From the NCBI GenBank assembly GCA_012033595.1, contig JAAUQL010000037.1, forward strand, positions 1-49,766: DNA of 49,766 nt. Direction: 5' to 3'. Under the pieces are notes generated by a model. That model ran no database searches, was not told the DNA's origin, and saw only the letters and a program-made list of their open reading frames with translations. This DNA is from Cyclobacteriaceae bacterium (GTDB lineage: Bacteria; Bacteroidota; Bacteroidia; Cytophagales; Cyclobacteriaceae). Of the stretch, positions 9,523 through 21,674 are shown piece by piece (the first letter of the stretch is position 1; every line of letters begins with the position of its first letter). Made by a program: the position numbers and the translations under genes.

Positions 9523-10347
9523 ATGCAGGAGATACATATTGTAGATATAAGGAAAATTACGGATATCATCAAGACCAAATATGGTTATGATTTTACGAAT
9601 TATGCCATTTCCTCCTTTAAGAGGCGGATATTGAGAATTTTGGAACTCTACAAATTCAACAGTGTAGATGCCCTGGCCAAAAAGATAAGTGACGACCCTG
9701 CCTTCTTCGAAGAGTTCATTTCCGAAATCACAGTCAACGTGACTGAAATGTTCCGCGATCCTTCATTTTGGAGGATTCTGCGCGACAAGATCATCCCCAA
9801 CATCCTGCTCAATCATAAAAAAGTAAGCATTTGGCATGCAGGCTGTTCCTCAGGCGAGGAAGTGTATTCTATGGCCATACTTCTGCGTGAAATGGGCATA
9901 TTGGAAGATGCCAAGATAATAGCCACAGATATCGATGACCAGATTCTTGAGCGAGCTCGGGGCGGAGTTTATACCGTCAAAAACATGGAGCTCAATGAAA
10001 AGAACTATGTAAGATTTAGAGGGGAGAATGAACTTAATAAGTACTTCGAGGTCAAAAATGGACTGGCCTATATGGATAAGTCACTTGTAAAAGATGTCTC
10101 GTACCGAAGGCATGATCTGGTGAATGGAATTGTATTCAACAAATTTGACATTGTGCTATGCCGAAATGTGATGATTTACTTCAATCAGAACCTGCAAAAC
10201 GATGTGTTGAAAAAATTGCATGAGAGCATTTTCAAATACGGTTACCTGGCTATTGGGTCTAAAGAATCGCTAATATGGTGTGAAATAGCCAACAAGTTTA
10301 TTGTGGTAAACAATGAAGAGAAAATCTATAAAAAAATAAAAGAGTAA
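9523..10347 (+). CDS. CheR-type protein-glutamate methyltransferase
   Basis: 274 residues. The N-terminal helical CheR_N region (about 1-65) contains the basic F-K-R-R-I-x-R. It is followed by T-E-M-F-R-D (74-79, counterpart of the usual T-x-F-F-R-D), the SAM pocket A-G-C-S-S-G-E-E (106-113), A-T-D-I-D near 135, and C-R-N-V-M-I-Y-F. Family members methylate glutamates of chemoreceptors using SAM. No classical chemoreceptor, cheA or cheW lies nearby. It is paired with a stand-alone CheB domain 15 bp downstream, a pair that elsewhere works on non-flagellar sensory proteins. The substrate here may be the sensor phosphatase encoded at 11849, which is an inference from position. Confidence 0.92.
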   Translation: MQEIHIVDIRKITDIIKTKYGYDFTNYAISSFKRRILRILELYKFNSVDALAKKISDDPAFFEEFISEITVNVTEMFRDPSFWRILRDKIIPNILLNHKKVSIWHAGCSSGEEVYSMAILLREMGILEDAKIIATDIDDQILERARGGVYTVKNMELNEKNYVRFRGENELNKYFEVKNGLAYMDKSLVKDVSYRRHDLVNGIVFNKFDIVLCRNVMIYFNQNLQNDVLKKLHESIFKYGYLAIGSKESLIWCEIANKFIVVNNEEKIYKKIKE

Positions 10348-10361
10348 GCGCAGATAGCAGA

Positions 10362-10963
10362 TTGAAAAGCATGAAATTTCCAGACTTAAATACTAATTTC
10401 AAAGCTATCGTGATAGGGGGCTCGGCTGGTAGTTTCCAGGGTATTGCCAAAATACTCGCACAGGTACCAGAAGACTTTCCGCTACCGATCATCATGTGCT
10501 TGCACCGCCTGAAACATGTACGCAATGGCTTTATCGAAGCATTGTCGATAAAAAGCATAAAAGAAGTAATTGAGCCTTACGACAAAGAATCGATCAAAAG
10601 GGGTAAAGTTTACCTGGCTCCTGCCAACTATCATTTGTCAATAGAGTTGGGTCATTATTTCAGTTTGTCAACCGAAGACATGGTCAATAATTCCCGGCCC
10701 TCGATCGATATCACCCTCGAAACAGCGGCATTTACTTATAAGACCAAACTAATAGGTATATTGCTGTCGGGTGCAAATAAAGATGGTGCCTTCGGCATGA
10801 AAAAATAAAAGACAATGGTGGGATCACCATTGTGCAAGACCCCGCCGAATGCATGATAGACACCATGCCAACAGCGGCTCTGAACATGACCCAGATTGAC
10901 TATACCTTGAGTATTGATAACATAATTCATTTTTTATCTGAAATTCATAAACTGTACAAATAA
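10362..10963 (+). CDS. stand-alone CheB-type methylesterase domain protein (frameshifted)
   Basis: Reconstructed length is about 200 residues. The catalytic triad is intact: Ser21 in G-G-S-A-G-S, His48 in C-L-H-R, and Asp141 in S-G-A-N-K-D-G-A. There is no receiver domain, so it is not a standard response-regulator CheB. The written sequence stops at TAA 10806-10808 after G-M-K-K. Adding one A to the A-run at about 10800-10805 continues into I-K-D-N-G-G and Q-D-P-A-E-C, exactly the CheB C-terminal pattern, to a stop at 10961-10963. It hydrolyses glutamyl methyl esters or deamidates Gln. It sits 14 bp after cheR and 3 bp before the GAF gene, clearly one operon. Confidence 0.88.
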
Positions 10964-10966
10964 TTT

Positions 10967-11821
10967 ATGAAATCGTTTTATAACAAGTTAAACGTCATTT
11001 TCACCGCATTCTTTGTACTTGGCGCACTGCTCTCAGCATACAACCTGTACAACCTTCCCGTCAAAATGGAGATGAACTCCGGCAGCATAGACCTCAACGT
11101 CATTAAGGAACTTGACCCGGTATTTACTCAGACCTATCTCATTGTAGGGCTTACGCTCGTCTTGGGACTTGGAGCCATCATTTTGGGCCTTTACCTGCTC
11201 AATTATACCAAAACAGCCGAGAAGATCATTTATGTGGAAAAGTCAGAAACCCACAAAGAAGATGAGGAACAAAAAGAACGACAGAACCAGCGCGACAATC
11301 TTGATCTGCAGGTAGCACAATTGTGGTCTGGTGCAAACGCCATTAGCGACCCAAAAAGGAAATTCGAAAAAGTACTCTCAGACTTGTGCATGAAACTGGA
11401 GGCCAGTCAGGGAATACTCTATACGGTGAAAAAGGAAAATGGCCAGCGATACATCGAATTGTTCGCCACCTTTGCCTACAACCTGCCCGAAAGCAAAACA
11501 GTAAAATATGAGTTTGGTGAAGGCCTCGCCGGGCAGGTAGCCAAAGAAGCCAAAAAGATCAACATCAAGGATATTCCAAAAGGCTACATAACTATTGTTT
11601 CTGGTTTGGGCGCTTCGTCGCCAAACCACCTGGCCATATTGCCGGTGAAGTCGGGCGAGGAAGTGGCCTATGTGGTGGAAATAGCATCTTTCAAAGAGAT
11701 AAGCAGCACCAATGAAGCATTGATAGAAGAAGTACTATCGAAAGGCATACAGACAGGCAAAGCTGAAAAACCGGCAGCCGGCTCAAAAGGACAAGAGGCC
11801 AAAGAAGAGAAAAAAAAGTGA
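10967..11821 (+). CDS. membrane-anchored GAF domain protein
   Basis: 284 residues: two membrane segments at about 8-29 and 54-79, a charged probable coiled coil at 88-110, a GAF domain at about 112-262, and a Lys/Glu-rich tail. The GAF domain resembles the one in the next gene, sharing the E-G-L-A/V-G-Q core, a Tyr-x-T-I-x-S-G segment and a V-V-E-I/F-A ending. This suggests duplication and perhaps the same ligand. There is no output domain, so it may act as an accessory sensor in complex with the phosphatase encoded 27 bp downstream. The ligand is unknown. Confidence 0.85.
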   Translation: MKSFYNKLNVIFTAFFVLGALLSAYNLYNLPVKMEMNSGSIDLNVIKELDPVFTQTYLIVGLTLVLGLGAIILGLYLLNYTKTAEKIIYVEKSETHKEDEEQKERQNQRDNLDLQVAQLWSGANAISDPKRKFEKVLSDLCMKLEASQGILYTVKKENGQRYIELFATFAYNLPESKTVKYEFGEGLAGQVAKEAKKINIKDIPKGYITIVSGLGASSPNHLAILPVKSGEEVAYVVEIASFKEISSTNEALIEEVLSKGIQTGKAEKPAAGSKGQEAKEEKKK

Positions 11822-11848
11822 TTTTTTATATAAAGAAGAAGAATTTAG

Positions 11849-14800
11849 ATGTTTAAGCGGATTAACATAAGAGGTAAACTAACAACCCTGATACTTTTTC
11901 TTGTCGTTGTTACGATTTGCACATCGGGCTATATTTCCTATTCTATCAGGAAAAACATGTTGCAGGAAAAGTACCTACAAAACCTGGGGGCGCTTGCAGA
12001 TGTCAAAAAAGACAAAATCCAGGACTTCATCCATGCTGCTGAAGGCGATATCAATTTAATATCCACGTTAGAACTTTTTCAGAATGTGAACGAGGAAGAA
12101 GTGACCATGGATGAAATGGCAATGTTCGATGAAGACACTATCGAAATGGCCATGGATGGTTTCAACACGGAATTACTCGACTTGTCTGAAATAGAACAAA
12201 CTTTAAAAACCATTAGAAAGTCGATTGATGCAGAAAAAATAATTATTACCGATAAAAACGGGAATATCATCGTCAACACCGGTTCAGACGACGCCACCAA
12301 TATCAAACAGATCATCAAAGCTACCGATGATGTATTTATAGATGCAGCCAAAGAAGGCATAACCTTTGGCCAGGTATTCAAATCTGGTGAAAGCCACCAT
12401 ATCGCCATAGGAGCTTATATTGGCGATATCAGTTCGAGCCGTGCCTTGTGTTTCATTATTACGAGCATAGACAATATCTACGAAGACCTGGCACAGGATA
12501 TGGGTCTGGGGGAATCTGTAGAAATCATTATTGCCGAAAAACGCGACAATATTGCCCTGTTTCTCAATCCGATAAAATTTGATGAAAATGCAGCCCTCAA
12601 CAGGGCCATAACCCTGGGTAGCAATGAAGCCATCGCCATGCAACAAGCCGTAGCCGGCAACGAGGGAATTGGGTATTCGGTAGATTATCGAGGCATAGAA
12701 ACCCTGTCGGTGTGGAGCTACATCCCAGTGCTCAATTGGGGTCTTGAAATAAAGGTAGACCAGAAAGAGATAAGCGACCAGGCCTTTGTGGTGGTGAAAA
12801 AATTTGCATTCTGGGGTGGACTTATCTTATTGTTTTCAGCGCTGATCTCCCTGCTTTTTGCCCAATATTTTATCAGCCCCCTGCTATCGCTAAAGGACTC
12901 ACTGATCTCCGTTTCGCAGGGTATTTTGCCCGATAAGATCGATAAAAAATACGATGATGAAATCGGCCAAATGGCCGAGACCACCGACGATCTGGTGCAG
13001 TCGCTCAAGCGCACTGCCACATTTGCTGAAAAAATAGGTAAGGGAGACCTCAAGGCAGACTTTAAGCCCTCAAGCAAAGGAGATATTCTGGGTAATGCGC
13101 TCATCGATATGCGCAAGAGTCTGGTAGAAACCGAACAGCGCGATACAGAGCGCAACTGGATTGTGACCGGGGTGGCAGAGATCAGCGAAATATTAAGATC
13201 GCACGACACCATAGACAAGTTGGGCGATGCGGTTATTGCTTACATCACCGAGAAGATCGATGCCATTCAGGGGGCATTTTACGTGGTAAACGACGACGAT
13301 CCGACTGACAAGTTTATCGAAATGAAGTCGGCTTATGCTTATCACAAAAAGAAATATATGCAGTCCAGCTTCCGGTTTGCAGAGGGTCTTGTAGGCCAGG
13401 CAGCAGCAGAAAAGGACTATATATTGCGCACAGAAATCCCGGGCGACTATGTGACCATTACCTCCGGTATCCTGGGCGATAAGAGACCCACCAGCATTTT
13501 GATTACTCCTTTGATCACTGAAGAAAAGGTGTTTGGAGTGGTGGAGTTTGCAGGTTTTCATCGATTTAGCGAAAGCCAGATCAAATTTGTACAAGAGATC
13601 AGTCTCATCCTCGCGCGCACTATTTTCAATATCAAAGTGAATGAGCGCACCAGGAACCTGTTGGAAGAGTCTCAGAAAATGAGTAACGAACTTCAGGAAC
13701 AGCAAGAAGTGCTAAGGCAAAATGCCGAAGAAATGGCTGCTACTCAGGAGGAGCTTAAGCGTACCAACCAAAGGCTCGAAGATCAGATCGAAGAAGTAAA
13801 CCGCACTCAAAACAGGATGCAGTTATTGCTCGAAAATGCATCGGAGGTTATTTCCATTTATGAAAAAGAGGGCACCATACGCTACATCAGCCCATCTGTA
13901 GAGCGTATTCTAGGGTATGCTCAAAATGACCTGATCGGCATCAATGACAAGATACACATAAGCCCCGAAGGTGTGGCTAATTTTGAGGATATGTTCCAAA
14001 GGGTCATCGAAAATCCGTTCGAGTCGGTCACTATTCAGTATGAATATATCAAAAAGGATGGTGATGCTATTTGGCTGGAAGCCACCGCCACCAACTTACT
14101 GTCCGATCCTGCCATACAAGGTATCATCCTCAACACACGTGACATCACGGAGCGGCGACGAGCCGAGCGTGAGGAACGCATGAAATCAAAAATGCAAGCC
14201 TTGTCCGAAAATTCACCCGATCTCATTACCAGGTTTACTCAAGAGGGCGAAGTCTTCTATATCAACCCGATGATCGAAAACTACACCGGTCACAAGCCCA
14301 GTGACATACTAAACAAGCGGATCAATGAAGTAGAAGTAGAGGAGGTGATCAAGAAAGAATGGATTGACATTCTCAGGCAGGTAGAAGCTGAAAATGCCAA
14401 GGTGGCCAAGGAAATGGATTTCCCCTCTATTTTGGGCGACAGGGTAATGCAGGTAAACGCCATTCCGGAATATGACGAGGAAAATACATTGGAGTCTGTG
14501 CTGGTAGTATCGCATGATATCACCGAACGCAAGCAAATAGAACTGGAAATACAGTCAAAAAACCGCAAGATCACCGAGAGTATCAATTACGCCAAGCGGA
14601 TACAAGGTGCCATATTGCCCAACAATGCCGTCATCAGGCAAATCTTGCCGGATTCATTTATTCTGTACAAAGCCCGGGATGTGGTAAGCGGTGATTTTCC
14701 TTGGTTTATCAATATGGGCGATATCATCTATTTCGCCGCTGTAGATTGTACCGGCCACGGAGTACCAGGCGCCCTCATTTCTCTGATTGGCTACTTCCTG

Positions 14801-15322
14801 CTCAACGATATAGTAAAAGGAAGAAAAATAAGCGACCCGGGCGAAATCCTCGACCAGCTTGATAAAAGTGTGACCAAGACCTTAAGGCAAGATACAGACG
14901 AATCGCAAACCAAAGACGGAATGGATATCGCACTGTGTAAGATCGATCTCAAGAACAATGTGGTCGCCTATGCCGGAGCGCACAGGCCACTGTACTATAT
15001 GAACGATTCAGAGCTCGAAGAAATCAAAGGCAATAAATTCCCAATAGGTGGGGGGATATATAAAAACCAAACCAAATTTACCAGTACCGTACTACAGGTA
15101 AACAAAGGAGATTCGATATTCTTCTGTTCCGACGGTTTCCCCGATCAGTTTGGTGGTCCGGACAACAGAAAATATGGGCCTAAACGCCTTCGGGATGCCA
15201 TTGTTGCCAACCATAAAAAGTCCATGGCCGAAATATATCAGGAGATAGACAAAGACTGGAGCGAGTGGAAAGGGAAGCAAAAACAAACAGATGATGTATT
15301 GCTTATCGGCGTACGTTTTTAA
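11849..15322 (+). CDS. multi-sensor SpoIIE/PP2C-type serine phosphatase, SiaA-like
   Basis: 1157 residues. Order: TM1 at about 13-33, a large extracytoplasmic sensor (probably Cache-like) to about 315, TM2 at about 318-340, HAMP to about 395, a GAF domain at about 440-597, a coiled coil at 597-655, PAS at about 660-770, a second PAS at about 785-897, and a SpoIIE phosphatase domain at 907-1157. Acidic metal ligands of the phosphatase are seen in V-V-S-G-D-F, V-D-C-T-G-H-G, S-D-G-F and T-D-D-V. Such proteins dephosphorylate an anti-sigma-antagonist or SiaC-type protein on Ser/Thr. siaB and siaC follow directly, so SiaC is the likely substrate. The upstream CheR/CheB pair could modify its coiled coil, which is untested. 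Confidence 0.9.
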   Translation: MFKRINIRGKLTTLILFLVVVTICTSGYISYSIRKNMLQEKYLQNLGALADVKKDKIQDFIHAAEGDINLISTLELFQNVNEEEVTMDEMAMFDEDTIEMAMDGFNTELLDLSEIEQTLKTIRKSIDAEKIIITDKNGNIIVNTGSDDATNIKQIIKATDDVFIDAAKEGITFGQVFKSGESHHIAIGAYIGDISSSRALCFIITSIDNIYEDLAQDMGLGESVEIIIAEKRDNIALFLNPIKFDENAALNRAITLGSNEAIAMQQAVAGNEGIGYSVDYRGIETLSVWSYIPVLNWGLEIKVDQKEISDQAFVVVKKFAFWGGLILLFSALISLLFAQYFISPLLSLKDSLISVSQGILPDKIDKKYDDEIGQMAETTDDLVQSLKRTATFAEKIGKGDLKADFKPSSKGDILGNALIDMRKSLVETEQRDTERNWIVTGVAEISEILRSHDTIDKLGDAVIAYITEKIDAIQGAFYVVNDDDPTDKFIEMKSAYAYHKKKYMQSSFRFAEGLVGQAAAEKDYILRTEIPGDYVTITSGILGDKRPTSILITPLITEEKVFGVVEFAGFHRFSESQIKFVQEISLILARTIFNIKVNERTRNLLEESQKMSNELQEQQEVLRQNAEEMAATQEELKRTNQRLEDQIEEVNRTQNRMQLLLENASEVISIYEKEGTIRYISPSVERILGYAQNDLIGINDKIHISPEGVANFEDMFQRVIENPFESVTIQYEYIKKDGDAIWLEATATNLLSDPAIQGIILNTRDITERRRAEREERMKSKMQALSENSPDLITRFTQEGEVFYINPMIENYTGHKPSDILNKRINEVEVEEVIKKEWIDILRQVEAENAKVAKEMDFPSILGDRVMQVNAIPEYDEENTLESVLVVSHDITERKQIELEIQSKNRKITESINYAKRIQGAILPNNAVIRQILPDSFILYKARDVVSGDFPWFINMGDIIYFAAVDCTGHGVPGALISLIGYFLLNDIVKGRKISDPGEILDQLDKSVTKTLRQDTDESQTKDGMDIALCKIDLKNNVVAYAGAHRPLYYMNDSELEEIKGNKFPIGGGIYKNQTKFTSTVLQVNKGDSIFFCSDGFPDQFGGPDNRKYGPKRLRDAIVANHKKSMAEIYQEIDKDWSEWKGKQKQTDDVLLIGVRF

Positions 15323-15323
15323 T

Positions 15324-15353
15324 ATTGAAATAGTGTATAATTGATTAGTTTTG
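15324..15353 (+). promoter_or_regulatory. candidate promoter upstream of siaB
   Basis: TAGTTTTG at 15346-15353 fits TAnnTTTG, with TTG at 15325-15327 near the -33 position and an 18-bp spacer. It falls in the 102-bp gap after the phosphatase gene and would allow siaB-siaC to be expressed independently of the sensor. Confidence 0.4.
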
Positions 15354-15424
15354 TGGTAATCAACAATTTAATTCACATAATATATAATATCGAAATCAGG
15401 TATAAAAATAATTAACAAAGTACG

Positions 15425-15970
15425 ATGAAATATATTTATGACATGCATCAAATGATGCTTAAGAACAACATCATTCTGGTTTACGAAGGAGAATTCACCC
15501 AAGAAATCACAAAGTCGGTTTTGGCCATGGCCGAGCGCAATATGGATTCTATAGGTGAAGAATCAGGGATAAAGCGGAAGGTGTTTAACGTAATGGTGGA
15601 GTGTCTCCAAAATATTGTAAAGCATGGCGAGGAATATATTTCTGGTGAGAAGCAGATCAATACCGCAATCTTTATGATAGGCAAACACAAAGACTCATAC
15701 ATTATTACCTCCGGCAACCCTATCCGCAACGATCTGGTCGAAAACCTAAGAGAAAAACTCGACATGATCAATAGCCTGGACAAAGAGGGTTTGAAATCAT
15801 TGTACAAAGACATCATCAAGAGCGGTACCGGACTTACGGAAAAGGGAGGCGCCGGCTTGGGATTTGTTGATATGGCACGAAAATCTGGTCAAAAACTCGA
15901 ATATGGCTTTGAGCCACTGAAAGGTGACCACTCGTTTTTTTCTTTGAAAACCACCGTACCAAGAGGATAA
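15425..15970 (+). CDS. siaB: SiaB family protein kinase (DUF6272)
   Basis: 181 residues of the GHKL-like anti-sigma-kinase type. The N-box region is V-M-V-E-C-L-Q-N-I-V-K-H-G, and the glycine-rich lid is near T-E-K-G-G-A-G-L-G-F. In Pseudomonas aeruginosa SiaB phosphorylates SiaC on Thr68 and the phosphatase SiaA reverses it. The two partners flank this gene here (phosphatase 102 bp upstream, siaC 31 bp downstream), giving strong contextual support. Cytoplasmic, with no membrane segment. The symbol is by homology to the Pseudomonas system. Confidence 0.88.
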   Translation: MKYIYDMHQMMLKNNIILVYEGEFTQEITKSVLAMAERNMDSIGEESGIKRKVFNVMVECLQNIVKHGEEYISGEKQINTAIFMIGKHKDSYIITSGNPIRNDLVENLREKLDMINSLDKEGLKSLYKDIIKSGTGLTEKGGAGLGFVDMARKSGQKLEYGFEPLKGDHSFFSLKTTVPRG

Positions 15971-16001
15971 ACTAGTATTAAATCAGAAAAGAAATACCAA
16001 A

Positions 16002-16364
16002 ATGGAAATAATTAATTTAGAAGGAACAGAAGATACCCCAAAAATAATATTGGATAAGACCAACAAGATTTTTGAGATTTCAGGAAGGTCTCTCCCGGAA
16101 GATTCGGCGGAATTTTATCAGCCTATACTCGATTGGCTGGCTGAATATGCCAAAGACCCGCTGCCTGAAACTATTTTTGATTTCAAACTGGAATATTTCA
16201 ATACCGCTTCATCAAAACTGATACTCGATGTGCTCACCTCTCTGGAAGATATAACAAATGCCAAAGTACACTGGTATTTTTACGAAGAAGATGAAGATAT
16301 GGAAGAAGCAGGCGAGGAATTTTCAGAGCTGGTAGATGTAGAGTTTGAACTGATGCCATACTAG
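16002..16364 (+). CDS. siaC: SiaC family regulatory phosphoprotein (DUF1987)
   Basis: 120 residues, a STAS-like small partner-switch protein. The conserved L-E-Y-F-N-T-A-S-S-K segment places the Thr at residue 68 when counted from this start, the same number as the phosphorylated Thr68 of P. aeruginosa SiaC. In that system unphosphorylated SiaC binds and activates the diguanylate cyclase SiaD. No GGDEF gene occurs in this window, and the next gene is a TerB-ABC-permease fusion, so the effector must be different or encoded elsewhere. The C-terminal part is very acidic (E-E-D-E-D-M-E-E). Confidence 0.9.
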   Translation: MEIINLEGTEDTPKIILDKTNKIFEISGRSLPEDSAEFYQPILDWLAEYAKDPLPETIFDFKLEYFNTASSKLILDVLTSLEDITNAKVHWYFYEEDEDMEEAGEEFSELVDVEFELMPY

Positions 16365-16470
16365 CAGTACACCTGGTGCTAAACCAATATATCAAGCAAC
16401 CATTTTTTTGGCTCTTGCCTTTTAAGGCTTTAAGGGTTGTTGCTAGTTAAGTTAATCTGAAGATTAAAAA

Positions 16471-19400
16471 ATGAGTGAGGAAATTCTAAAAGCTTTAACT
16501 CAGCTTTTTGCGATCATTACCAAGCAAGATGGGGGTGTCACAGAAACGGAGCGGGATTTTGTAATAAGCATCTTCAAAGAAGACTTAGATCACGACTCTA
16601 TCAAAGAATACCTGGCGCTCTACGACGAGTTTGTCGGATATGGCAAAGAGGTGGTCGCCACTGAAAAGAAAAAGCTGACCTCGGTAAAAGACTCCGTAAA
16701 AACACTTGCCATTTGTCGCAAGATCAATAAAACCCTTACCCAAAAACAAAAAGTCGTTGTTCTGATCAAATTGCTCGAACTGGTGGGTTCTGACCGCAAT
16801 TTCTCTTCGCAACGCATGGAGATAATCAATACGGTCTCCGAAGTGTTTAATATTACCACCGAAGAGTCAAAACTGGTCGAAGCATTTATTCTGCATACTT
16901 CCGATGAAACCCTCGACAAAGAAGACCTGTTATTTGCCCGCAAAAAAACAGGTCAGGAGGTGGTGCTTGCCCATGAAATAGAAGCCAATATCACTGGCGA
17001 ATTGATGTTTTTGAGAGTGAGGAGCGTCGATATGTACTTTGTGCGCTACCTCGGCCATGAAGAAATACTGCTCAACGGTTTCATCATCAAACCAGGGCTC
17101 ACCTATCAGTTTTCGCATGGTAGTACCATTAAAACGCCAAGTGGCGATGCGCTCTACTACAGCGACCTGGTCAGGCATTTTCTCTCCGAATTCGAAACAG
17201 TAAAGCTGTCCTTTATTGCCAAAGACCTTCAGAAAAAATTTCCTAATGGCACTATCGGTCTGCGCGATATCAATATCTCCGAAGGCCCGGGAAAACTCAT
17301 TGGGATAATGGGGGCAAGTGGAGCGGGAAAACCACCCTGCTCAATGTGCTTGCAGGCATAGACAAACCCAGCTCGGGTAGTTTGAAGATAAACGGTGTGG
17401 AACTGTTTTCGGATAGCAACGAAAAAACCAAAGGTGTAATCGGCTACATCTCTCAAGATGACTTGCTCATCGAAGAGCTCACCGTTTACCAAAACTTATA
17501 CTACAACGCCAAGCTGTGTTTTGCCGATATGGGTGAAGAAGAGCTTGCCACGCGTGTGATGAACACCCTTACCAATCTGGGTCTGGACCAGCGCAAAGAT
17601 TTGCGTGTGGGTAGTGTGTTGGACAAAACCATAAGCGGCGGCCAGCGCAAAAGGCTCAACATCGCTTTGGAACTAATACGCGAACCAGCAGTCCTTTTCG
17701 TGGATGAGCCCACATCTGGCTTGTCTTCCCGAGATTCAGAAAATGTGATTGATTTGCTCAAAGAGCTCACGCTTAAGGGCAAATTGATTTTTGTGGTCAT
17801 ACACCAGCCATCGTCAGATATTTACAAAATGTTTGACAAGATGATGATCATGGATGTGGGCGGATATCCGGTCTATTACGGACCGCCAGTAGAGGCTGTC
17901 ACCTATTTTAAGTCGGCAAGCAACCAGGTTGGTGCCGACAAAGGGCAATGCCAAACGTGCGGAAACGTAAATCCAGAACAGATATTCAACATTATCGAAG
18001 CCAAAGTGGTGGACGAATATGGTGAATTTACCAAAAAGCGAAAGGTAAACCCTGTACAATGGAAGGCCTTGTATGATGAAAATTTTTCACAAGAGCACAT
18101 AAAGGAAATCAATGAGCTACCGCCACGCTCGCTAAAGATCCCCTCCAGATTTAAACAGCTCATAATTTTTGCCAAAAGAGATACTTTATCAAAGTTGAGC
18201 AATACACAATACATGCTCATCAACTTGCTTGAAGCACCCTTGCTGGCTTTTATCCTGGCTTTTTTGATCAGGTACAAAAGTGGCCCGGAAGGGCAGGAAT
18301 ATGTTTTCAGGTTCAATGAAAACATACCGGTATATATCATGATGGCGATTATCGTCGCCTTGTTCATGGGGCTAACCGTGAGTGCAGAGGAGATCATAAA
18401 AGACCGGAAGATATTAAAACGAGAATCGTTTCTCAACCTGAGTTGGAACAGCTATTTACTTTCCAAAATATCTATCCTATTTGTGCTTTCAGCTATTCAG
18501 ACCATCATTTTTACGGTATTGGGCAACCTGATATTAGGAATACATGGGATGACACTTACCTATTGGCTGGTACTCTTTTCTATATCTTGCGTAGCCAATA
18601 TCATAGGCCTCAATATTTCATCGGCATTCAATTCTGCTGTTACGGTGTACATTCTCATACCATTGCTTATTATTCCGCAGATGGTGTTGAGTGGTTTGTT
18701 ATTTAGTTTCGACAAGCTCAACGAAGTGGTAAGTACAAAAGGAAAAGTACCGGTAGTGGCAGATTTCATGGCTTCTCGGTGGGGGTACGAAGCGGTGGCG
18801 GTGCGGCAGTTTATGGAAAATGCCTACGAAGATAAATTTTATGAATTTGAAAAAAATGAATTGCAATCTGATTTTAAATCGTCGTATTGGACAAAAGAAT
18901 TGAAGAGCAGAATTAACTATGTCAAAGACAATATCGGCACAGAGGATGAAGCCAAAATCAAGAAAATTGATCGCTATCTCAATGTAGTAAAAAGGGAATT
19001 GATAGAAGATGCAGGCACGGAGGTAGTCAATGACATCAATTTGCGAAAGGCCCTCGAAAGGTCTGCCTTCACCCCTGAGGTAGCGGACGATTTGAACGCA
19101 TACCTTGATGCCTTGTTCACCAAATATCTCAATGAATACAATTTGGCTGTTCAGAAAAAAGAGAAGTTGATCTATGCCCTGGAAAACAATTTCAAATATG
19201 ATCTGAGCACCATGAAAGACAAGCACTACAATGAAAGTCTGTCTGATCTGGTGCGCAATCTAAATGTGAAAGAGCGGGTGATCGAATTTGAAGGTGAATT
19301 GCTTCAAATCGTTGATCCCATTTTCAATGATCCAAAAAATCCTGAAAACTTACTCGACTATCGGACACATTTTTTTGCACCCAAAAAACATCTTTTTGGA

Positions 19401-19550
19401 GTTTACTTCGATACCTATTGGTTCAATTTGGTTGTGATTTGGCTTATGGCGGTGGTTTTGTACATCGCATTGTATTTTGAACTGCTCAAAAAGGCCATTG
19501 CCTCATTTGAAAGCCTGGCAGGGAAATTAAAGGATAAGGAATCCAATTAA
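16471..19550 (+). CDS. TerB-like domain fused to ABCG-type ABC transporter ATPase and permease (frameshifted)
   Basis: Reconstructed length is about 1026 residues. An N-terminal TerB-like helical domain (about 1-150) is followed by a beta-rich linker (about 165-235). The ABC ATPase domain (about 245-480) has Walker A G-A-S-G-A-G-K, signature I-S-G-G-Q-R-K-R-L-N near 388, Walker B V-L-F-V-D-E-P near 407 and an H-loop I-H-Q-P. Membrane helices lie at about 583-745, then a helical soluble insertion of some 220 residues and a last helix near 982-1003. The break is inside Walker A: GGGAAAACCACC lacks one A, so the frame turns to K-P-P and stops at 17359-17361, while the next frame continues L-A-G-I-D-K. 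It lies 106 bp after siaC and probably exports or extracts a hydrophobic substrate. Substrate unknown. Confidence 0.88.
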
Positions 19551-19592
19551 ATAATAGGTGTAATAAACTAGGCATAATTGCTTGATTTACAG

Positions 19593-19623
19593 TTTTATTA
19601 TCATTTTGATATTTATATTTTTG
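19593..19623 (+). promoter_or_regulatory. candidate promoter for the lipoprotein gene
   Basis: TATTTTTG at 19616-19623 matches TAnnTTTG, with TTTT/TTTA at 19593-19597 as a -33 element about 19-20 bp upstream. The start codon at 19643 follows 20 bp later. Confidence 0.45.
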
Positions 19624-19642
19624 TTCAGTTAAAATTGATATC

Positions 19643-20538
19643 ATGAAAAAATTAGTGCATTATTTTTAGTATTAATCGTATTTGCCTGCGGCCCGGATAA
19701 AAAATCTGACGAGCAGGCATTTCTTGACAGTCTGGACAATATCACCCTGGATGCTCCGATGATTTCCGAAGAAGTAATCACCGATATTATCCAACAGGTG
19801 CCTTCTCCTTTGGAAATATCCTATTTGCTCAAGGATGCCGGCACGCAGTACGATTTCAATATCCTGAATTCGCCAGGCAGCTATACCAATTACAACAGCA
19901 ACTTCAATAAGGCGCTAAACCTGGGAATATATGGTACCGATCTGGGCTATGCCAATATTTATGAAGAAAACCAGGATGCAATTTTGTATCTCAATTCCAT
20001 CAAAGGATTGGCTAATGACCTGAGCATTGGTCAGTTTTTCGATTTTGGAACGATTGCCAGGTTGGCCACCAATAGCAAAAATCTCGACTCACTGTTGCTT
20101 ATCACTACTCAAAACTTCAACAGCATCAATACTTATCTACAAGAAAATAAGCGGTCGAACTTAAGCGTGCTGATACTCACCGGAGGCTGGCTTGAGGCAC
20201 TACATGTCACTTGTCAGGTAGCGCAGAAAAATCCGGGCAATGAAAAATTGATAGAGAAAATAGGAGAGCAAAAGATTATTTTGGACAACATCAAGCTGAT
20301 GCTAGAATTTTATACCAAAGATCCATACATCGCCGATTTGCATAAAAATATCCTGGAACTCGAAAAAGCCTTTTCGCAAATAGAAATCATTTACACTTAT
20401 GCGGAGCCTACCATGCAGGAAGTCGATGGCATGATCGTAGTAAAGGACAATAGTACCACCACCATCAACATTACCAAAGAAAATGTGGATACTATTCGGG
20501 AGCAGGTAATCAGTATAAGGGAAAAGATCATTAGCTAA
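19643..20538 (+). CDS. lipoprotein of unknown function (frameshifted near the signal peptide)
   Basis: Reconstructed length is about 298 residues. The ATG at 19643 begins M-K-K-L-V and is followed by a hydrophobic stretch and the lipobox V-F-A-C-G, but only if one base (probably G) is added near 19654-19660. As written, the frame ends at TAG 19667-19669. The first Met of the downstream frame (19759) lies past the lipobox and is not the true start. The mature part is helical, with no catalytic motif recognised. It is likely anchored in the periplasm or outer membrane. It follows the TerB-ABC fusion by 92 bp, behind its own candidate promoter, and precedes a small secreted protein gene by 16 bp. 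It may be a partner or substrate-binding protein for the transporter, judging by position only. Confidence 0.75.
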
Positions 20539-20554
20539 AAAATATATTTTTTGT

Positions 20555-20989
20555 ATGAGACAGGTAATCAATATCCTAGGAATAACATTCATCGCATTCG
20601 TATTCGCTGCAAGCGTGGCCAATGCACAGTGCGATGCCGAAGCCCACGCCAATGCGTGCATTTCAAAGCTCCAAGATGGATTCACGTTCTTAAAAACTTT
20701 TAAAGTGGACGGACAAGGCGGAGCAAAAGCCAAAGTAGAATATTCGTACGTTTTTAGTAAAGACACTCAATATTTCCTCAATATTTGCAACAGTGGCGCC
20801 GACACTGACGGCATCGTGGTAACCATGTACGATTCGAAACGACAAATGGTATCGACCAACTTTAACAAAGGCAAGTTTTATCCGGGACTGGTGTATCCAT
20901 GCAATGCGACGGGGATTTATTACATCACCTTTACGTTCCAGGATTCTCAAAATCACTGCGGAGGCAGCGTCCTTGGATTTAAGCGCTAG
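20555..20989 (+). CDS. small secreted protein, unknown
   Basis: 144 residues with a clear Sec signal peptide (hydrophobic core, then A-N-A-Q at about 22-25). The mature domain is beta-rich with five Cys (C-D-A-E, N-A-C-I-S, N-I-C-N-S, Y-P-C-N-A, N-H-C-G-G), suggesting at least two disulphides and a periplasmic or extracellular location. The pattern Y-F-L-N-I-C-N ... G-I-V-V-T-M-Y-D resembles pre-peptidase or lectin-like jelly-roll domains, but I cannot assign a family. It lies 16 bp after the lipoprotein gene and is followed by a terminator at 21012-21035, so it closes the signalling cluster. Confidence 0.8.
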   Translation: MRQVINILGITFIAFVFAASVANAQCDAEAHANACISKLQDGFTFLKTFKVDGQGGAKAKVEYSYVFSKDTQYFLNICNSGADTDGIVVTMYDSKRQMVSTNFNKGKFYPGLVYPCNATGIYYITFTFQDSQNHCGGSVLGFKR

Positions 20990-21011
20990 TCAGCAGGTAT
21001 CAAAAATTTGA

Positions 21012-21036
21012 AAAGCAGGCAGACCCTGCTTTTTTT
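21012..21036 (+). terminator. terminator directly abutting the next start codon
   Basis: Arms AAAGCAGG and CCTGCTTT around the loop CAGAC, followed by a T-run to 21036. The next ATG is at 21037, with no space for a separate ribosome binding site. Readthrough, or the hairpin acting as attenuator, would control the esterase gene. Confidence 0.65.
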
Positions 21037-21674
21037 ATGGAAAAGAAAAACGCAAAATTTACCATTGACGCCCCCTATTACAAGCTGGGCGACATCGGCT
21101 CGCACACCAAAAAGATCTGGCTGATTTTTCATGGATATGGGCAACTGATCGACGACTTTGCCGAACCCTTTGCCTCCTTTGAGCAAGAAGACCACTGCAT
21201 ACTTTTTCCTCAGGGTCTTTCAAAATTTTATCTGAAAGGTATAGATCAAAAAATAGGCGCAAGCTGGATGACAAGCCACGACAGGGAAATGGACATTGCC
21301 AACTACATCAATTATCTCAATTTTATATTCGAACAGGAAATACAACCTTTTGCCAATAAAATATTGCTCAATGTACTTGGCTTCTCGCAAGGAGGGCACA
21401 CCGCCAGCCGCTGGATCGCCAAAAGCCATGTGAAATACGATAAGTTGATCCTTTGGGGGTCTTCACTGGCTGCTGAGATTGGCAGTGAGGAAGTGAAAAA
21501 CCACTTTGGGAATGGCAAAACATCGTGGTGGTGGGCGATCAGGACAAGTACGTGACAGGTGAGCAACTACTATTGAACAGAGAAAGGTACGCGAAAGCCG
21601 GTTTCAAATACCAGCTACTCGAATACCATGGCGGACATAGCCTAGACCCCGATGTATTGCGGAGTCTTATCTAG
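21037..21674 (+). CDS. alpha/beta hydrolase, phospholipase/carboxylesterase type (frameshifted)
   Basis: Reconstructed length is about 212 residues. The oxyanion-side H-G-Y-G, the nucleophile elbow G-F-S-Q-G-G, the acid V-G-D-Q-D, and the His in G-G-H-S are all present, but the last two lie in a second frame. The written frame ends at 21553-21555 after G-K-T-S-W-W-W. Inserting one base (for example A) near 21526-21530 gives V-V-V-G-D-Q-D-K and continues to TAG at 21672-21674. The family hydrolyses short-chain or lysophospholipid esters. The final TAG overlaps the stop of the convergent SDR gene in the palindrome CTAG at 21671-21674. Confidence 0.82.

Follow-up and report, generated by a model that had tools for sequence, protein, structure and literature searches.

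A Sia-type partner switch with a TerB-headed ABCG-type transporter as its probable output in Cytophagales

The window analysed here is contig JAAUQL010000037.1 (49,766 nt) of the draft genome of a Cyclobacteriaceae bacterium (Cytophagales; assembly GCA_012033595.1). At positions 9523-20989 it carries an operon whose genes all lie on the + strand, in the order cheR, cheB, a GAF gene, a phosphatase gene, siaB, siaC, a transporter gene, a lipoprotein gene and a gene for a small secreted protein (Table 1). Open reading frames and a Pfam scan agree with the genes, order and coordinates given in the initial annotation of this DNA. In Pseudomonas, the Sia genes form a phosphorylation switch for biofilm formation. 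Based on comparison with related genomes, we propose that the operon encodes a Sia-type partner switch with an ABCG-type exporter as its output, in which SiaC docks on the TerB head of the exporter; we rate this as rather probable.

Table 1. Features of the operon in the window, followed by natural SiaC fusions found in relatives (aa, amino acids)
Feature	Position	Strand	Evidence or remark
CheR methyltransferase, 274 aa	9523..10347	+	PF01739 148.3 bits, PF03705 39.7 bits
CheB methylesterase domain without receiver	10362..10961	+	PF01339 109.5 bits over first 148 aa; remainder open in a different frame
Membrane GAF protein, 284 aa, weakly conserved	10967..11821	+	PF13185 25.6 bits, just below cut-off 28.6
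SiaA-like sensor phosphatase, 1157 aa	11849..15322	+	dCache, HAMP, GAF, coiled coil, two PAS, SpoIIE/PP2C; PF07228 74.2 bits
SiaB-family kinase, 181 aa	15425..15970	+	PF19788 149 bits, cut-off 26.6
SiaC, 120 aa, Thr68 in Y-F-N-T motif	16002..16364	+	PF09345 131.5 bits, cut-off 24.5
TerB domain, transporter residues 1-145, all helical	16471..16905	+	PF05099 33.1 bits, cut-off 24.4
FHA-like domain of transporter, about residues 150-242	16918..17196	+	Foldseek of predicted model
ABC ATPase and ABC-2 permease, ABCG type	17346..19550	+	PF00005 65.3 bits, PF01061 69.4 bits
Lipoprotein, about 299 aa in relatives, all-helical new fold with short beta part	19642..20538	+	signal and Cys in relatives
Small secreted protein, signal peptide, 144 aa, 5 Cys	20555..20989	+	no Pfam match
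Terminator-like palindrome after last gene	21011..21033	.	weak: 17 such sites in the stretch, 11.3 +/- 3.6 in shuffles
TerB-FHA-SiaC fusion, genome G099, 374 aa	L167:9868-10989	+	directly before transporter gene
TerB-FHA-SiaC fusion, genome G172, 377 aa	L168:8501-9631	-	directly before transporter gene
Degenerate fusion, genome G276 (another family), 367 aa	L267:8275-9375	-	same place before transporter

The SpoIIE phosphatase, the SiaB kinase and SiaC with its Thr68 had been read as a SiaABC set, an assignment borne out by family and structure matches alike (PF07228 and 6k4e, PF19788 and 6kko_A, PF09345 and 6k4f, respectively). The best solved relative of the phosphatase is the PP2C domain of SiaA (6k4e, E 7.2e-35), and its motifs SGD, DCTGHG, SDG and TDD at 947, 965, 1094 and 1147 mark it as a SiaA-type PP2C with metal-binding Asp. 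Its SpoIIE, GAF and two PAS domains score above their Pfam cut-offs, dCache and HAMP below theirs. For SiaB, the closest solved chain is SiaB itself (6kko_A, E 7.1e-14), with Glu59 aligned to a Glu of that chain (E61 if the chain numbering is offset by one). In alignments with the P. aeruginosa SiaC chains 6kko/6k4f (E about 6e-12), Thr68 of SiaC falls on their Thr. It lies in an invariant Y-F-N-T motif: Y65, N67 and T68 are the same across 13 aligned sequences, and [YF]xNT is present in all 80 loci of the survey described below. At locus L079 of a relative, the SiaB protein exceeds the cut-off of NF038262 (SiaB family kinase; 178.6 bits against 85), and the proteins of the same locus fall below the NCBIfam SiaB and SiaC equivalog cut-offs (83.4 vs 225 and 80.3 vs 150).

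In P. aeruginosa, the SiaC partner switch has been described as a regulator of a diguanylate cyclase, SiaD (PMC8457831). Residues Y65, N67, T68 and S69 of SiaC contact this effector, T68 and its neighbours inserting between its helices, and phosphorylation of T68 blocks effector binding (PMC8457831). The authors of that work suggest that, elsewhere among bacteria, proteins of the DUF1987 family modulate the products of neighbouring genes (PMC8457831).

The Pfam scan upheld the earlier statement that no GGDEF gene follows siaC in this operon; a transporter gene takes that place. Its product had been described as a TerB-ABC-permease fusion of 1026 residues. Relatives support this with a single frame (median 1028 aa in 78 relatives, some of them cut by contig ends, one broken at 682 aa in L102 and one with an internal stop in L084). 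The window itself holds two frames, and the earlier description lacked an FHA-like domain between TerB and the ATPase. An ATPase followed by an ABC-2 permease in one chain is the ABCG-type domain order (PF00005, PF01061). ABCG2 chains match the ATPase-permease frame at E 1.8e-35 over residues 10-458, and CDR1 is also among the best solved relatives. The permease carries a long insert, and the L079 transporter reaches 246.7 bits against TIGR00955, far below the cut-off of 736.35.

The head of the transporter combines two domains. TerB (PF05099) was matched in all 54 members of the head alignment (E <= 1). A predicted model of residues 1-280, with a mean predicted local distance difference test score of 81.2, places a beta-rich domain between TerB and the ATPase. 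In a Foldseek search with this model, FHA structures made up most of the 50 matches listed, with 5yyz as the best (E 2.7e-3, probability 1.00) and none at E <= 0.001; no FHA family was among the best 25 of the 35 Pfam families listed for the 54 head members. The FHA-like domain conserves S185 (49/54), N202 (53/54) and K221 (52 K and 2 R of 54). It has no conserved Arg, the best candidate being R182 in 33 of the 54 members. The all-helical TerB domain would make a fitting partner for SiaC.

Conservation of the gene order links SiaC to this transporter. The initial annotation had suggested surveying relatives for SiaC linked to TerB-ABC fusions and cheR-cheB, and such a survey, run as a GTDB genome scan with a SiaC alignment, found the linkage conserved within the order. 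The best 80 of 447 confirmed candidate loci were analysed; their titles are mostly Cytophagales or families that we take to belong there, some are generic, and three bear odd names (Bacteroides, Chitinophaga, Thalassobius). TerB lies directly downstream of siaC on the same strand in 78 of the 80 loci, at a median gap of 105 bases, and the siaC-TerB linkage is therefore far beyond chance. SiaB is present around siaC in all 80 loci. Among the loci testable for each gene, the ATPase/permease was found in 75/77, the phosphatase in 75/78, the GAF protein in 71/74 (a few of these matches may come from the phosphatase, which has a GAF domain of its own), cheR and cheB in 67/71 each, the lipoprotein in 72/76 and the secreted protein in 69/74. 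Median gaps between the operon genes range from 0 to 105 bases. As exceptions, L112 and L135 consist of siaB-siaC alone, L148 lacks the upstream genes and L157 lacks cheR and cheB.

The reverse search gave a similar picture. With the transporter as query, a match was found in 47 of 59 genomes, and siaC adjoins in 33 of the 38 regions fetched, which cover 37 of the 46 other genomes with a match; no siaC lies beside the transporter in L061, L062, L063, L069 and L070. The source genome itself holds paralogous TerB-ABC transporters on two further contigs (G000:C76 and G000:C30; L073 and L074) with no siaC near, one of them with a relative of the lipoprotein upstream.

A second line of evidence comes from natural fusions. 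Domain fusion is a classical sign of direct contact. In genomes G099 and G172, both of them more distant relatives, TerB, FHA and SiaC are joined in one protein encoded directly before the transporter gene (Table 1). Against the TerB-FHA profile, the heads of the two fusions reach 59.3 and 35.4 bits, compared with at most 8.4 and 8.1 in 200 shuffles of each; their SiaC parts score 70.6 and 66.0 bits. Aligned by hhalign, the two fusion heads match the transporter heads at E 3.9e-12 (probability 97.6). The fusion suggests that the switch controls the pump and points to the head as a docking domain. A third protein of this kind (L267) has a SiaC part of 106.4 bits and a head of 27.0 bits, against 2.2 in shuffles.

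The two genes also tend to occur in the same genomes. Across the 59 genomes, 44 have both, 3 the transporter only, 2 SiaC only and 10 neither. The corresponding numbers are 30, 2, 0 and 5 within the family of the source genome (p 4.8e-5), and 14, 1, 2 and 5 in the other families of the order (p 0.004). At the level of the class, 198 of 395 genomes have the TerB-FHA head and 213 have SiaC: 189 have both, 9 the head only, 24 SiaC only and 173 neither. The two class searches used different E-value limits (1e-5 and 1e-3) and gave positions for part of their matches, and one of the 24 SiaC-only genomes (G324) is a weak SiaC match below cut-off. Outside the order, SiaC adjoins the transporter in 15 of 24 loci ranked 5-28, in the same direction, divergently or tail to tail; the nine others include three contigs shorter than 7 kb and one full of N. 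Eight loci from other orders (L171-L178), chosen because SiaC was near, have a second arrangement in which the lipoprotein and the transporter are followed by siaC-siaB tail to tail. We rejected this as the usual arrangement outside the order, given the systematic sample described below.

We also compared 13 heads from genomes without SiaC, three of them from one genome, with 20 SiaC-linked heads from outside the order. The SiaC-less heads keep 0.35 of the conserved TerB columns, compared with 0.67 in the linked heads. The other regions gave 0.57 vs 0.70 (FHA), 0.62 vs 0.85 (first helix) and 0.84 vs 0.91 (ATPase).

Several observations weigh against a SiaC-controlled transporter. The p-values of the co-occurrence are inflated, as shared ancestry confounds it, and 9 of the 198 class genomes with a head have no SiaC. 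Within the order, genome G012 lacks SiaC altogether and has kept the transporter, the lipoprotein and the secreted protein. In a systematic sample of 20 lower-ranked loci outside the order, SiaC lies nearby in only two (3/21 with L176). The same 20 picks have a relative of the lipoprotein upstream of the transporter in 17 cases, which makes the lipoprotein the steady neighbour of the transporter. SiaC keeps a fixed place next to the transporter in one lineage; in the other it mostly lies elsewhere in the same genome. The SiaC-less heads diverge everywhere, ATPase included (p 8.8e-5). Since all regions drop, the loss of TerB conservation, although the largest, reflects general divergence in part, and the head of L179 keeps 0.80 of the conserved TerB columns without SiaC. 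The full fusion is rare, occurring in 2 of the 61 genomes of the family that includes G099, and the head of L267 is degenerate, with an FHA part of 1.2 bits that is not above shuffles and an hhalign probability of 11.8. Finally, at 20 paralogous SiaC loci TerB was a neighbour in none, while SiaB was found in nine and PP2C in seven. The earlier proposal that SiaC phosphorylation controls the transporter is thus favoured by the linkage in 78/80 loci, the class-wide co-occurrence and the fusion, and tempered by the patchy linkage outside the order (15/24 top-ranked, 2/20 systematic).

These observations bear on the possibility that SiaC has another effector, and that the operon merely co-expresses switch and transporter for the same response. 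Most surveyed genomes with SiaC carry paralogs, and the lack of a TerB neighbour at the 20 paralogous loci indicates that SiaC also acts on other targets; for this reason we dropped the idea that TerB partners SiaC in general. The transporter, in turn, occurs without SiaC and lies mostly apart from it outside the order. On the other hand, such co-expression would leave the fixed adjacency, the TerB-FHA-SiaC fusion and a co-occurrence that holds even where the genes lie apart to be accounted for, and we regard it as unlikely, though the strongest of the competitors.

The paralogs are themselves diverse. Two further siaC copies of the source genome lie on contigs C221 and C194 (L192, L193), and neither siaB nor TerB was detected beside them. 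In genome G047, a paralogous Sia cluster (L202) is preceded by cheR and cheB, comes with a second cheR and has no TerB transporter. SiaB and SiaC share one frame of 329 aa in L276, and in L277 SiaC is extended by a coiled, probably membrane-bound part. Three Cytophagales genomes (G038, G047, G050) have 13-19 SiaC matches each, pointing to many parallel partner switches.

Another candidate effector is a diguanylate cyclase encoded elsewhere, as SiaD would be the model from P. aeruginosa. The SiaABC set itself argues for it, and PF00990 (GGDEF) matches in four of the 59 genomes: G001 (E 9.0e-28) and G005 (1.2e-47), of the same genus as the source genome, and two others. The search for SiaD-type cyclases proposed in the initial annotation found no PF00990 match in the source genome (97.24% complete), although two of six same-genus genomes do match. 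With the domain absent from 55 of the 59 genomes and SiaC present in 46, a cyclase is unlikely as the general output of SiaC, and we give this explanation very little credence.

For the transporter, we propose the following sequence of events. The SiaA-like sensor phosphatase and the SiaB kinase would together determine whether Thr68 of SiaC carries a phosphate. While Thr68 is free, SiaC would dock on the helical TerB head of the TerB-FHA-ABCG exporter and set its activity, and phosphorylation would release SiaC from the head, a sign carried over from P. aeruginosa. The lipoprotein may work with the exporter in the envelope, and CheR and CheB probably adjust the sensitivity of the sensor side by methylation. 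Observed here are the gene content, the family memberships, the conserved linkage, the co-occurrence, the rare fusion and the scarcity of GGDEF; from these and from P. aeruginosa we infer that SiaC binds the head, in which sense the switch works, that transport is outward and what CheR/CheB do. A more far-reaching version, which we put forward tentatively and rate well below the docking itself, is that the exporter is gated directly, with SiaC as a detachable regulatory subunit, and that CheR/CheB give the phosphatase a chemotaxis-like memory without chemotaxis receptors, such that export could adapt to a steady stimulus.

The sign of the switch could also be the opposite. Phospho-threonine peptides are the typical ligands of FHA domains, which need a conserved Arg to bind them. 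The FHA-like domain might therefore read SiaC phosphorylated at Thr68, which would make the phosphorylated form the active ligand of the transporter. The best fold match, 5yyz, is an FHA domain with a phospho-threonine peptide, and SiaC homologs are phosphorylated on threonine (PMC8457831, PMC7647112). However, no Arg is conserved here (best R182, 33/54) and the best 25 of 35 listed Pfam families do not include FHA. The conserved columns lost without SiaC sit more in TerB than in the FHA-like domain, and in P. aeruginosa phosphorylation abolishes effector binding (PMC8457831). We therefore consider a phospho-reading FHA domain improbable, and retain docking of SiaC on TerB.

The presence of CheR and a receiver-less CheB upstream, together with a membrane GAF protein and the phosphatase, was verified (PF01739, PF01339). 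The signalling domain of methyl-accepting chemotaxis proteins (MCP) was found in 19 of the 59 genomes and not in the source genome, so chemotaxis receptors cannot be the general targets of the CheR/CheB of the operon. Since both genes keep their place in the operon, either the GAF protein or the phosphatase is a candidate target. Within the phosphatase, the coil that precedes the first PAS domain (residues about 600-660) is highly conserved, with N.EEM..T.EEL in 63/69. It is a doubtful candidate for a methylation helix. The receptor methylation consensus has 3 matches in the 69 phosphatases, none with the coil letters, and a relaxed form occurs in 4/69 coils; moreover, the coil persists in L157, which lacks cheR and cheB. 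The earlier idea that methylation tunes the sensor is plausible from the cheR-cheB linkage (67/71), with a coil that does not follow the consensus. Upstream of cheR, 23 of 67 loci carry an additional gene for a sensor; the one example scanned (L145:521-3385) has HAMP, GAF and PAS domains. In the window, this place is taken by a methyltransferase gene.

Three frames of the window are broken. The transporter is split into frames 16471-17361 and 17346-19550, the break falling in a run of A at about 17328, where the Walker A region is encoded. The cheB frame breaks near 10800 at a run of A, leaving 148 aa where 67 relatives have 195-205 aa. Another run of A, near 19646, interrupts the lipoprotein frame close to its start. 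That all three breaks sit at runs of 4-6 A makes sequence errors probably a better explanation than gene decay, and suggests that the assembly systematically misjudges the length of such runs. The second siaC copy on C221 of the same genome is likewise split into two frames. A programmed frameshift in the Walker A region was considered and dropped: relatives have one frame, and a similar-looking split in L270 falls in Ns. The broken frames are also what would be expected if the gene set had decayed and the linkage were accidental. With breaks confined to runs of A, intact frames in relatives (median 1028 aa) and a conserved linkage, we attach next to no weight to decay.

The last two genes of the operon encode envelope or secreted proteins. 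Among the Pfam matches listed for the window copy of the lipoprotein, no family is above cut-off, and its fold search gave no match at E <= 0.001; with a best match of 1.4e-1, we rejected an assignment of function by fold. The small secreted protein had been called Cys-rich. Its signal peptide agrees with secretion, and its Cys content amounts to just 5 Cys in 144 residues. After the operon, an esterase-like frame of 172 aa (21037-21555) looks truncated; downstream, it is conserved in 45 of 71 testable loci.

Taken together, the operon is a deeply conserved form of a known switch that appears to act on a new output, and the proposed control of the transporter by SiaC is well supported by comparison. 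The operon identifies a specific, conserved neighbour of SiaC in an order where GGDEF signalling is sparse, makes the function of many Bacteroidia SiaC proteins testable, and offers a case of CheR/CheB acting outside chemotaxis.

Searches of an open-access library turned up the SiaABCD work in P. aeruginosa and no description of a SiaC-linked transporter or TerB-FHA-ABC protein, in agreement with the earlier remark that no system with this combination had been described. The cyanobacterial slr1658/slr1659 regulators (NCBIfam names) are weak profile relatives of SiaB and SiaC, at 37.2 and 16.6 bits against a cut-off of 100. CheR and CheB belong to the same families as the chemotaxis pair, whereas the CheB here has no receiver and the source genome no MCP domain.

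On the transporter side, the ATPase and the ABC-2 permease follow one another in one chain as in ABCG-type (White family) exporters, from which this protein differs by its N-terminal TerB and FHA-like head and the long permease insert. Mycobacterial Rv1747 has an FHA domain fused before an ABCG-type exporter and is tied to Ser/Thr phosphorylation. Unlike such Rv1747-type FHA-ABC transporters, the protein described here goes with a Sia-type phosphorylation system, has TerB added and carries an FHA-like domain without a conserved Arg. On the side of the switch, the operon shares with SiaABCD of P. aeruginosa a SpoIIE/PP2C sensor phosphatase, a SiaB kinase and a SiaC with Thr68, all in one operon. 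It differs in that cheR, cheB and a GAF protein precede them, the sensor contains additional GAF and PAS domains, and genes for a TerB-FHA-ABC transporter, a lipoprotein and a secreted protein stand where siaD would be expected.

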